39,942 nucleotides of DNA, taken from assembly GCA_949282975.1 (NCBI GenBank), contig CASDQY010000055.1, positions 1 to 39,942 on the forward strand, in the 5' to 3' direction. Shown here piece by piece: positions 21,020 to 29,642 of the stretch (its first letter is position 1; each line of letters begins with the position of its first letter). The position numbers and the translations under genes are program-made. Below the pieces are notes generated by a model. The model saw only the letters and a list, made by a program, of their open reading frames with translations. It was not told where the DNA came from and did no database searches. This DNA is from an uncultured Oscillospiraceae bacterium (lineage in GTDB: Bacteria > Bacillota > Clostridia > Oscillospirales > Ruminococcaceae).

Positions 21020-21056
21020 CGGCATAGTCGTTTAGATAGCGGCTATGCCGTTTTTT
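21020..21056 (+). terminator. Terminator-like hairpin at the left end of the element
   Basis: CGGCATAG (21020-21027) pairs with CTATGCCG (21043-21050), followed by six Ts on the plus strand. It overlaps the recombinase stop codon. It could block host transcription entering from blaI. On minus it is followed by a weaker ATATTTT. Confidence 0.75.
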
Positions 21057-22695
21057 CGTCCTTTTGCGGCGGCAGGAACTCGCCGATGCAGTTCCATACG
21101 ATTCTCATGCGCTGCACCTTCTTCCCGCCGATACGCTCTGCCTTGTAAACCTCGATGCGCTCCACAAATTCCCGGATGATTTCCGGCGTCAGTTCCCGGA
21201 TATCCGTGTACTTTCGTACCAGAGCGAGGAAACGGTCGGTGTTTACCGTGCTTTCCTGCTGTGCGGCAATCAAATCATGAAGCTCCGTCACCCTGCTCTC
21301 CAGCGTTTTCTGTTCCGCCTCGTAGCTTTCAGACATCTTCGCAAAACGCTCATCGGAAATCTTTCCCTCGATGTTGTCCTCATAAAGCCTCCGGATAATC
21401 CCATCCAGCTTGCGGATGCGGCTCTGTGCCTGCTCCAGCTCACGCTTTGCGTCTCTCAGGCTCTTGTCGGATTCCGCCTTGGACTTTTTCGTGACCATCT
21501 CCACAAAGGCGTCCTCGTTTGCCCTTGCGCAGGCGGTGATCTCCCGGATGCCGGAGAGCAGAAACTCTTCAATCACGCTGTTCCGTATCTGGTGTGACGG
21601 GCAGACCTCCTTGCCCTTCTTGCGGTAGGTGGCGCAGACCATGTACTCGCTCTGCGGCAGGCTCCTGCCACGCACCTGATACATCTTTGAACCGCAGTCA
21701 GCGCAGAATACCATGCCGGATAATGCGGGCATCTCACCCATCGGCGTCACCCTGCGCCTGCCGTCCCGGATGCGCTGCACAATGTCGTATGTCTCCCGGT
21801 CAATGATGGCCTCATGGGTATTCTCGAATATCTGCCACTCGGACGGGTCGTGTTTCAGTTTCTTTTTCTGTTTGTAGGACTTGCGGTAGGTCTTGAAGTT
21901 GACCGTGTGGCCCAGATACTCCGGACGGGAAAGCATATGGGAAACAGTGCTGCCGCGCCAGATGTAGTCGTTATCACCGTCCCTATTGTCGGGAATACCT
22001 CTGCCGTTTGCTTTGGCGTGGGCGGTCGGATTCATTATATGCCGTCTGCTCATTTCCGCCGCGATCTGCGATACACCATAGCCCTGTACGCAAAGATGGA
22101 AAATATCCCGGACTACCTTTGCGGCTTCTTCGTCCACGATCCAGCGGCTTTTATCCTCCGGGTCTTTTACATAACCGTAGGGCGGATTCGTGCTGAGAGG
22201 CTTTCCAGACTGACCCTTTGCCTTGAACACGGCGCGTATCTTGCGGCTGGTGTCCTTGGCATAAAACTCATTGAAAATGTTAATGAACGGCGTCATGTCG
22301 TTCTCCGCCTGGTTGTCGCTGTCCACGCCGTTGTTGATGGCGATGAAGCGGACGTCGGCGTTCGGAAATATCATCTCCGTGTACATCCCCACTTTCAGGT
22401 AATCCCGGCCAAGGCGGCTCATGTCCTTTACGATGATCGTTCCGACCTTCCCCTCGTCCACCAGCTCCATGAGGCGGTTCCAATCCGGCCTGTCGAAGCT
22501 GGTCCCGCTGTACCCATCGTCTACGAACAGGGAGGTGTTGCGAAAGCCGTTCTCATCTGCGTACTTCTGCAGCATGGCTTTCTGGTTGCGTATGCTGTTG
22601 GAATCGCCCTGCAGCTCATCGTCCCTTGACAGGCGGCAGTAGAGGGCGGTGATCTTATCTTCCTTCACAGTGGAAGACTGCCTGTTTGTACTCAT
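21043..22695 (-). CDS. tnpX: Large serine recombinase, Tn4451 TnpX-like
   Basis: A 550-residue site-specific recombinase that would integrate and excise the element through a covalent phosphoserine intermediate. The N-terminal resolvase domain has catalytic Ser23 in [10 protein letters not shown], and also [13 protein letters not shown] and [14 protein letters not shown] near 95. The recombinase domain follows ([19 protein letters not shown]). A zinc ribbon begins with CADCGSKMY and ends with the later Cys pair ([20 protein letters not shown]). A long coiled coil spans about 385-465. I chose ATG 22695, behind GGAGGAACAC. The frame extends 9 codons upstream. It lies at the element end, next to attL. 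Confidence 0.93.
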
Positions 22696-22774
22696 GTGTT
22701 CCTCCTTCCCGACAGTCTTCAAGCGGTACTATATATTCCCGTACTACTGTGAAGAAGTCAAGTGGTTTTGCGCA

Positions 22775-22936
22775 TTAAGAGGCGGATTTCTCAAGAGTTA
22801 TCGGTTCGTTCAAGATTAGCCGCTTTACCTTGTCGTCGGCGGTCTCCTTTGCGCTTTTGCCGGTCGTGTACTCAGCAATATAGATGGTATCGCCGCGCCT
22901 TATGGCTGTAATGCGGACGGGATCGTGTTCCTTCAT
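22775..22936 (-). CDS. tnpW: Transposon-encoded TnpW-family small protein
   Basis: A 53-residue protein. The core RRGDTIYIAEYTTGKSAKETADDKVKRLILNE resembles TnpW of Tn4451-group elements, which usually sits next to TnpX. The function of TnpW is not well defined. I chose ATG 22936, with AGGAGGA 6 bases upstream. An open frame continues to 23071, but its upstream part crosses an inverted repeat and lacks a good ribosome site. It lies 79 bases upstream of the recombinase gene in the same direction. Confidence 0.75.
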   Translation of the reverse strand: MKEHDPVRITAIRRGDTIYIAEYTTGKSAKETADDKVKRLILNEPITLEKSAS

Positions 22937-23216
22937 TGGATTCCTCCTGTTCTCTCTAATACATATGCGAAAATGTGCGCAAATCCCGTACCCGTTGTCC
23001 GCTCGAATAGCCACAGAGTATTCCTGGCCCATAGGGGGCATCGCATCTCTGCAGCTATCGAAATTGGACAACGGGCCGGGGCCTTACGCACGAAAAAAGC
23101 GGATTCAAAAGGGTGATTGCCCCCTCAACCGCGAATATTTTCCCGTAATGCGGCATACTGTAATAGAACCGCTTCTTTGAATATCCGGGTCTGCAGCCAA
23201 AAAACAGCGTTCAAGA
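22937..23216 (-). other. Intergenic region with long inverted repeat upstream of tnpW
   Basis: CCCGTTGTCC (22991-23000) is inverted as GGACAACGGG (23066-23075). The pairing extends imperfectly through CGAATAGC (23004-23011) and GCTATCG (23054-23060), around a loop of ~42 bases. Between this and the capsid stop, a short minus reading ending at 23125 contains LLQYAALRENIRG without a start of its own, which looks like a decayed gene end. No complete gene is supported here. Confidence 0.5.
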
Positions 23217-28348: not shown

Positions 28349-28504
28349 CTACTTCAGTACAATCTGGGCTTTACCGTCCGTCTTTATCTTGAGGACTGCG
28401 TTGTACGGAGTCAGATCCTTGTAACCTGTGCTGCTGTGCTTATCCAGCATTTCCTCCCGATGCTTCAACTTCCGATTCGCCCGCTGCCTTTTTCTGTCTT
28501 TCAT
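28349..28504 (-). CDS. Small basic element protein
   Basis: A 51-residue lysine/arginine-rich protein (MKDRKRQRANRKLKHREEMLDKH...) of unknown function. GGAGGTGCCGAT precedes ATG 28504. It is the first gene of the minus-strand module, and its leader comes from the divergent promoter region. The charge suggests nucleic-acid binding. Confidence 0.6.
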   Translation of the reverse strand: MKDRKRQRANRKLKHREEMLDKHSSTGYKDLTPYNAVLKIKTDGKAQIVLK

Positions 28505-28583
28505 ATCGGCACCTCCAATCTTTCCGCTTCGGACAGACTGCTCCCCCGGCTGCGGGAAACAGCCTGCCGGCTGACGTCCGCCG

Positions 28584-28677
28584 ATACAAGAGAATTTACA
28601 ATTTGCTCTTGTATTTGTCCCTATTATACCGTATAATATTACCGATGTACAATTTTCATCGGTAATGCTATCGGTAA
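28584..28677. promoter_or_regulatory. Divergent promoter/operator switch of the element
   Basis: Two promoters meet in one palindrome, ATTATAC-C-GTATAAT (28623-28637), giving a TATAAT on each strand. Plus promoter: TTGTAT (28609-28614), 17 bases, TATAAT (28632-28637). Minus promoter: TATAAT (complement of 28623-28628), with TGTACA or TTGTAC 17-18 bases away. Inverted repeat 1, ATACAAGAG-N13-CTCTTGTAT (28584-28614), covers the plus -35. Inverted repeat 2, ATTACCGATG-N9-CATCGGTAAT (28638-28666), covers the minus -35 and the plus start. A third half-site, TATCGGTAA, is at 28669-28677. Confidence 0.75.
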
Positions 28678-28697
28678 GAAAGAGAGGGGACATTCCC

Positions 28698-29642
28698 ATG
28701 AAACAACTCCAGACCGAATACTTCACCTTTACGGAAATCGGCGGCGTCGGCGAGATGATCTACAGGGCGGTCCGTTTCCCGGAATATGTGCCGGAATACA
28801 ACCATGCCAGCAAGGAGGATGAGATTAAGCCGCTGTTTAGCTTCCTCGGCCGGCCGATAAGCGGCACGGATTATTCCATCACCGGGCAGGAGCTGCTTGC
28901 CAGCCTGTGCAACCTGTATAAAAAGATAAACGCGCCCGATTCAGACGAGCGCGTTACCGACCTTGTGTGGGACTGGTGCAGGAACCATATCCATCCTTAT
29001 GATATTGACGTATTGTGTGACGAGATTGAGAACGGCGATTTTGTAAACGCCGAATTCCATGAATGGCTGCAGAGAAGGGCGACCTTTGAGGTGAGGGGCT
29101 TTGTTTCCGATGTCTGCAAGCTGGGGACGGCTTTTGAGTACTACGACGCCCTGCAGAAGATACGCTGCAGCCGTGACGTTTCCGCAGGACGGGGATTGTA
29201 TTACGAAGGGCGTATCTGCGACAGCCTGCCGTTCCTTGAGAAATACAGGCAGTTCGCAGACGATACGGAATATCTCCGGCGCGTCAATGCGGATTACGAC
29301 AACCGCCTGTTTGACCTCCTTGAGATGTTCCCGGACTTCAAAATGCGGGTGAAGCAGGACAGGAAGACGCATAAGGCGGAAATGTGCGCCGAGATACATT
29401 CCGTGTTTAATATTGCCTGGTATGCCTTTGCCCGTATGGTGGCGGACGTTGCTCCCCCGGCGGACACGGATTTGGATTACATGTTCTCGCAGGGCTCCAT
29501 CCTGATCTGCATGGCCTGCGGGGAATACTTCGTCAGGCACTCCAGCCGCCAGAGGTACTGTGACAATCCGGCCTGCAAGGCAGAGCGGAACAACCGCAAG
29601 GCGAGGGCGTATTACAAGAGGAAGAACGCAGGCGAGAAATAA
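28698..29642 (+). CDS. Divergent regulator-like protein with C-terminal zinc finger
   Basis: A 314-residue protein. The N-terminal ~260 residues are mostly helical with no known motif. The C-terminus has CMACGEYFVRHSSRQRYC, then CKAERNNRKARAYYKRK, a CGNR-like zinc finger with a basic tail that should bind nucleic acid. It resembles element proteins annotated DUF6076, from memory. GAGGGG precedes ATG 28698; a frame extension to 28665 would begin within the operators. Its position, divergent from the excision-replication module and behind two operator repeats, is that of a satellite master repressor, but the function is inferred. Confidence 0.65.
   Translation: MKQLQTEYFTFTEIGGVGEMIYRAVRFPEYVPEYNHASKEDEIKPLFSFLGRPISGTDYSITGQELLASLCNLYKKINAPDSDERVTDLVWDWCRNHIHPYDIDVLCDEIENGDFVNAEFHEWLQRRATFEVRGFVSDVCKLGTAFEYYDALQKIRCSRDVSAGRGLYYEGRICDSLPFLEKYRQFADDTEYLRRVNADYDNRLFDLLEMFPDFKMRVKQDRKTHKAEMCAEIHSVFNIAWYAFARMVADVAPPADTDLDYMFSQGSILICMACGEYFVRHSSRQRYCDNPACKAERNNRKARAYYKRKNAGEK

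Follow-up and report, generated by a model that had tools for sequence, protein, structure and literature searches.

Gene content and boundaries of the element

The DNA analysed here, i.e., the 39,942-nucleotide stretch of contig CASDQY010000055.1 from an uncultured Oscillospiraceae bacterium (hereafter the window), harbours an integrated element of ~14.24 kb (20980–35220) that joins a TnpX-like recombination module to P4/D5-type replication genes and a gene for a lone HK97-fold major capsid protein (MCP). This MCP (23217–24182, minus strand; PF05065 at 7.8e-65, phrog_10 at 2.2e-69 and TIGR01554 at 2.2e-72) is without most of the delta domain. Profile searches of the element's genes recognised the MCP as the sole structural gene, bearing out what a first-pass annotation of the window had claimed. 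On the same strand lie a TnpX-like large serine recombinase (21043–22722; Resolvase, Recombinase, zinc-ribbon and DUF4368 domains; phrog_95), TnpW (22775–22981; PF14202 at 1.8e-7), a P4/D5-type primase-helicase (25768–28053; NrS-1 HBD, DUF5906, D5_N and Pox_D5 domains, with the P4-family C-terminus TIGR01613) and an excisionase-type helix-turn-helix (HTH) protein (28092–28289; TIGR01764; 67–87% identical in relatives). Directly 3′ of the primase gene, a repeat search revealed about ten copies of the iterons CTGCTACC/GGTAGCAG (25458–25764), marking a candidate replication origin; specifically, ten CTGCTACC copies, counted on both strands, are packed inside 400 bp at ~25.4–25.8 kb, and two relatives (G362 and G409) carry eight copies of a different 8-mer at the corresponding place. 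A divergent open reading frame (ORF; 28665–29642, plus strand) encodes a 325-aa protein that is probably a regulator and that matched no Pfam family in the profile search. All of these genes and features had been named in the first-pass annotation, and all proved real in the profile and repeat searches. As a side observation, the divergent protein carries a C-terminal cysteine cluster (CxxC...C) and is kept only in near relatives (56–59% identical) whose primase is of the window-type branch (L124, L125, L244 and L246).

Both ends of the element carry AATCCCTAAGTT motifs, which are inverted relative to each other and shared by relatives, and an empty site was identified in two genomes of the same genus (L063 and L064), where tyrS, blaI, a terminator, a DUF3737-like gene and pnp follow each other consecutively and the insert is absent. 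Together, the end motifs and the empty-site comparison fix the end positions to within ~5 bp. The left host arm of a split terminator hairpin (AACACCCGCC) and the left junction lie at 20966–20985 (from the sequence and the folding of the joined flanks), and the right end motif (AATCCCTAAGTTCAACCATCTAAC) and the right host arm GGCGGGTGTTTTTG at 35197–35234 (from the end motifs, the empty site and the flank folding). The earlier extent of 21043–29642 fell short at its end, since the element runs on to ~35220 with ~5.6 kb of cargo that had been omitted; likewise, the earlier layout was right for the core genes but had overlooked the defence cargo, the real ends and the terminator-loop site.

This cargo is read from the plus strand and comprises a type II restriction-modification (R-M) system and a Kiwa-like pair. 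It opens with an HTH protein (29694–29936; HTH_17 at 6.8e-16), followed by two cytosine-C5 DNA methyltransferases (29959–31020, PF00145 at 1.4e-68; and 30797–32080 when counted from the first start codon, PF00145 at 3.4e-66), the second of which probably starts near 31,000, its PF00145 domain beginning at residue 71. Next come a type II restriction enzyme (32077–33579; PADLOC REase_II PDLC03426 at 5e-111), a KwaB-like protein (33603–34532; PF16162 at 6.2e-8 and PADLOC KwaB at 4.3e-7) and a KwaA-like protein (34477–35106; PADLOC KwaA at 2.2e-14), the real start of which may be downstream.

The remaining genes of the element are small and located on the minus strand. Between the primase and the MCP lie the zinc-ribbon proteins zn1 (24185–24496, adjoining the MCP) and zn2 (24518–24805) and the small proteins o80 (24815–25057) and o114 (25076–25420; with a 60% identical relative in L135). 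The group at 24185–25420 is conserved in part of the element family described below and absent from elements of the type found on Bacillus badius plasmid pPM400; its members are possible assembly or size factors. A further small conserved ORF with an uncertain start codon (28349–28582) is 54–59% identical to counterparts in L001, L142 and L248. Finally, a miniature inverted-repeat transposable element (MITE)-like repeat with palindromic, terminator-like ends occurs at 36292–36700 and ~20716–20960 of the window, with ~80 matches spread over many contigs of the window's own genome (G000) and a few in one genome of the same genus.

A recurrent family with a lone capsid gene

Relatives were gathered from GTDB genomes, IMG/VR, plasmids and phage records, yielding 58 loci with a gene for a ~299–335-aa MCP without most of the delta domain. 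They represent a family that is widespread in Bacillota. The combination of a TnpX-like module, P4/D5-type replication and a lone, selected MCP, which the first-pass annotation had put forward as a possible new class, is thus a real and recurrent element family, and its recurrence in dozens of loci places the architecture far beyond chance. The minimal core, as seen in the annotated element on pPM400, consists of an HTH protein, a P4/D5-type primase, the MCP, TnpW and a serine recombinase with an adjoining defence operon; other branches add the zinc-ribbon and further small genes. No relaxase was found among the window proteins or the genes annotated on the pPM400 element. Since two other serine recombinases replace TnpX in certain members, the capsid gene has been joined to several integration modules. 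About a dozen of 391 sampled Clostridia genomes, and likewise of 398 sampled Bacillota genomes, contained a lone MCP, corresponding to ~3% of the sampled species of either group. One genome carries two copies, i.e., an intact one of 13.4 kb (L129) and one of 16.9 kb whose primase and recombinase end carry inserted genes (L130, G659:C1).

Homologues of TerL, portal, protease and tape-measure proteins were found in 0 of the 58 loci when the 870 kb around the MCPs were searched with profiles that started from phage genes and were built on 15 phage loci, a search that an unrelated terminase family would escape. Moreover, across ten MCP copies from sister elements (900 bp each, without in-frame stops) the median ratio of nonsynonymous to synonymous substitution rates (dN/dS) was 0.083, next to 0.10 for the primase and 0.06 for the recombinase. 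The MCP gene is thus under purifying selection and useful to the element. It had been considered beforehand that the capsid of relatives might always be accompanied by terminase and portal, or might be disrupted in sister elements; the first pattern occurred in none of the 58 loci, and the ten sister copies are intact with a dN/dS of ~0.08.

Because of this low dN/dS, it is extremely unlikely that the capsid gene is functionless debris of a prophage or a chance passenger, and the ten intact copies derive from different families, while one truncated form of the gene recurs in all 58 loci, joined to several recombinase set-ups. Certain capsid copies are indeed truncated along with the primase (L043, 7.8 kb; L046, 4.9 kb; G176:C85, 3.1 kb), as debris would be, but clearly truncated capsids were seen mainly in short elements that also miss primase sequence, and since capsid truncation accompanies the loss of other core genes, such elements are presumably dead. 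A decayed prophage was rejected as a candidate on the dN/dS of 0.083 and because none of the relatives was found to have head genes.

The window MCP aligns to positions 85–383 of the 385 positions of TIGR01554, so that its N-terminal part is missing, and compared to phage homologues the lone MCPs are without ~80 N-terminal residues, i.e., most of the delta domain. The first-pass annotation had described the delta domain as lacking, which holds for most of it but not for a short N-terminal helical segment (EYxxxFWNxMR), which the lone MCPs retain together with the E-loop region according to the alignment and an AlphaFold2 model. This retention of N-arm and E-loop suggests that assembly features have been kept. 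The model, of a monomer and based on an input alignment of window and relative-locus sequences only, reached a predicted local distance difference test (pLDDT) score of 89.9, and the nearest solved folds among the matches listed were the capsids of the gene transfer agent (GTA) RcGTA, of phage Mycofy1 and of EcCI2, a capsid-forming phage-inducible chromosomal island (cf-PICI). The phage homologues inspected are ~400 aa long and encoded directly after terminase, portal and protease, and in a quick tree one fully supported branch divided the lone MCPs from all sampled phage MCPs.

A selected gene that sits with the primase and TnpW in the core might also have been recruited for another task in the element, such as regulation or the sensing of helper phages, unrelated to shells. 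This is very unlikely, as the entire shell fold is conserved, including the E-loop region that is used only in assembly.

Encapsulins, too, have a solitary gene for an HK97-fold shell protein, with neither a delta domain nor a protease or portal. The lack of most of the delta domain and of any partner head gene, together with a spread over orders that suggests independence from narrow-range tails, would fit an MCP that forms a closed compartment or particle alone, serving either as an enzyme shell or as a helper-free carrier of element DNA. We nevertheless consider this unlikely, since the MCP belongs to the phage family PF05065 (its sole Pfam match, and not the family of the encapsulins), retains the E-loop and N-arm region, and has GTA and phage capsids as its best solved folds among the matches listed. 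Moreover, unlike encapsulins, it is located on a mobile element and no conserved cargo enzyme adjoins it, the neighbouring zinc-ribbon genes being absent from pPM400-type elements; without a portal, there is also no known route for DNA entry. The bolder idea that the lone MCP self-assembles into small particles, with no portal or tail from a helper, and in this way moves the ~13-kb element between distant bacteria, as a one-protein transfer vehicle for defence genes, is a long shot.

Integration in terminator loops

In 15 of the 16 elements with both ends mapped (G572 being the exception), the joined host flanks form a stable hairpin, which in most cases adjoins a T-run, i.e., constitutes an intrinsic terminator whose loop holds the element. 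In the fold comparison, pairs of random flanks were rarely as stable; for the window element, the joined flanks fold to –20.3 kcal/mol, and 0 of 60 random pairs were as stable. As read from these junctions, the TnpX-like recombinases of this family insert elements into the hairpin loops of intrinsic terminators. The DUF4368 serine-recombinase clade, to which multi-targeting has been ascribed, was defined in a survey that does not mention terminators (PMC10083194).

Besides the window, terminator-loop ends were listed for L004, L005, L041–L046, L066, L124–L132, L154 and L244–L251. By inspection, further elements show a terminator-loop site, and in elements with more distant recombinases some downstream ends also resemble terminator arms.

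A possible helper-dependent phage satellite

We propose that the element is a phage satellite which depends on helpers for the other virion parts but brings a nearly scaffold-less MCP of its own to make small heads, a proposal to which we give about an even chance of being right. It is favoured because the MCP is selected, because all 58 loci lack other recognisable head genes, unlike the phage homologues inspected, and because element size is narrow. Specifically, 17 MCP-bearing elements with both ends located and without insertion sequences measure 11.6–14.6 kb (mean 13.4 kb, SD 0.74 kb) despite a cargo that varies between type I, II and III R-M, AbiTii, OLD-like nucleases and Kiwa, and this narrow range, measured on MCP-bearing elements only, is what packaging would impose. 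Small-head satellites such as Staphylococcus aureus pathogenicity islands (SaPIs) are 13–15 kb in size. The proposal is further favoured by the P4/D5-type primase with iterons, by the lack of a relaxase among the genes searched, by the retained assembly features, by the EcCI2 capsid among the nearest folds, and by HK97-type portals, which were found in several hosts besides the genome of the window itself. The first-pass annotation had offered three functions for the capsid protein, i.e., building smaller capsids with helper parts, poisoning helper assembly or forming a closed compartment, and the data favour, without proving, the first.

In such a satellite, an active helper phage would lead the recombinase and the excisionase to excise the element, which the primase would then replicate in a P4-like manner. 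The satellite MCP would replace or mix with the helper MCP, giving a shell made partly or wholly of satellite MCP, and its near-absent built-in scaffold might shift assembly to small heads sized for ~13–14 kb, while the helper would provide portal, terminase, protease and tail. On arrival in a new host, the element would be placed by its recombinase in an intrinsic-terminator loop without breaking a gene, and the R-M or Kiwa-type cargo would shield that host from other phages.

The consistently defensive nature of the cargo (type I, II and III R-M, AbiTii, OLD-like nuclease and Kiwa) would also suit an MCP that acts as an anti-phage decoy, i.e., one that is expressed on infection, is built into the assembling heads of infecting HK97-type phages and acts on these heads as a dominant-negative poison, on an element that is a mobile defence island and is transferred by conjugation hitch-hiking, transformation or ordinary transduction. 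A subunit with most of its scaffold domain gone and its shell domain intact fits such a poison, and the selected MCP sits in the core beside the primase, outside the swappable cargo. Taken together, this decoy role and mode of transfer are a lesser possibility, if one of some weight: a decoy should resemble local phage capsids, whereas the lone MCPs are set apart by their fully supported branch and do not differ between hosts from different families; a defence gene would be expected to swap like other defence genes; and the narrow element size is left unexplained.

Several points also weigh against a satellite, and our confidence in it stops at an even balance mainly because the spread is unusually broad for a tail-dependent satellite. 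Element cores are 95–98% identical at the protein level in B. badius (Bacilli) and several clostridial families, and an element in Mycoplasmopsis gallinarum (L005, 265–13014) is probably a recent cross-class arrival. Its primase and MCP genes use only TGG in a host whose code reads TGA as tryptophan, and its GC content of about 0.42 lies above that of neighbouring host genes, so that it probably came from a standard-code donor. In-frame TGA codons as an adaptation to genetic code 4 were ruled out for this copy, given the TGG-only usage of primase and MCP and a frameshifted recombinase. Five of 14 hosts searched were without any portal match and two more had sub-cut-off matches or none, although phages need not be resident. 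A hint in favour of a satellite comes from one relative (L065, 4.7 kb), whose database record names it 'Bacteriophage sp.' from faeces collected in Mexico, consistent with a study of virus-like particles (0.22-µm filtration, DNase); its link to that study is unconfirmed, however, and a single contig could be cellular DNA. An attP-pattern search of IMG/VR yielded no excised element circles, an outcome that is uninformative. Furthermore, the narrow size range may in part reflect typical R-M operon lengths. Neither a packaging site nor a small terminase or size-redirecting gene was recognised, and since lone and phage MCPs are only ~36–46% identical, it may be hard for the element's MCP to co-assemble with that of a helper.

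As expected of a satellite, the element is integrated, equipped with a recombinase and its own replication genes, and not a complete phage. P4-like satellites, SaPIs and other PICIs are of a similar size class and have a P4-type primase with iteron-like origin, an excisionase-type HTH, integration and frequent defence genes, and they use tyrosine integrases. Unlike them, the present family encodes its own selected MCP together with TnpX and TnpW, whereas those satellites rely on a size factor or scaffold to redirect the MCP of the helper (PMC6893505). With cf-PICIs such as EcCI2 it shares the state of an integrated satellite with its own HK97-type capsid protein. However, cf-PICIs encode a full head and packaging set of MCP, protease, portal, connectors, terminases and HNH (PMC10690885), in contrast to the MCP alone (and TerL, portal and protease homologues in none of the 58 loci) in this family. 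The Streptomyces satellites MulchRoom and MiniFlayer also have their own MCP, within a full capsid and packaging repertoire that includes portal, terminases and scaffold and with no obvious replicase (PMC10690885). EfCIV583 was considered as an own-capsid precedent and ruled out, as it encodes no capsid protein.

Mobilisable transposons of the Tn4451/TnpX type have in common with this family the TnpX-like recombinase with DUF4368 and TnpW; they differ in the TnpZ-type relaxase, which was not found here (in the window and the annotated pPM400 genes), and in the primase, MCP and terminator-loop insertion that are present here. Some tycheposons carry single phage genes, a lead only. Tycheposons and virion-encapsidated integrative mobile elements (VEIMEs) are integrative elements that are packaged in virions and have few phage genes or none (PMC10803314), and unlike the present family they belong to marine hosts. 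Neither MCP-only satellites nor elements combining TnpW and a capsid were described in the literature searched, outside of which most subscription papers fall. The element would thus work like a satellite yet fails the defining gene sets of cf-PICIs, P4-like satellites and Tn4451-type transposons.

If the satellite proposal is true, the family fills the gap between satellites that steal whole heads and cf-PICIs that make whole heads, with one virion gene supplied by the satellite, and it makes it possible to test directly whether head size can be dictated by an MCP that is missing most of the built-in scaffold. More generally, the truncated and selected lone MCP points to an undescribed means of exploiting phages or of blocking them. 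A recombinase family whose insertions fall in the loops of terminators would have a way to insert without breaking genes, which merits study in its own right. As a common family that moves interchangeable R-M, Abi and Kiwa-like systems across the borders of orders and classes, these elements may be an important route for defence genes.

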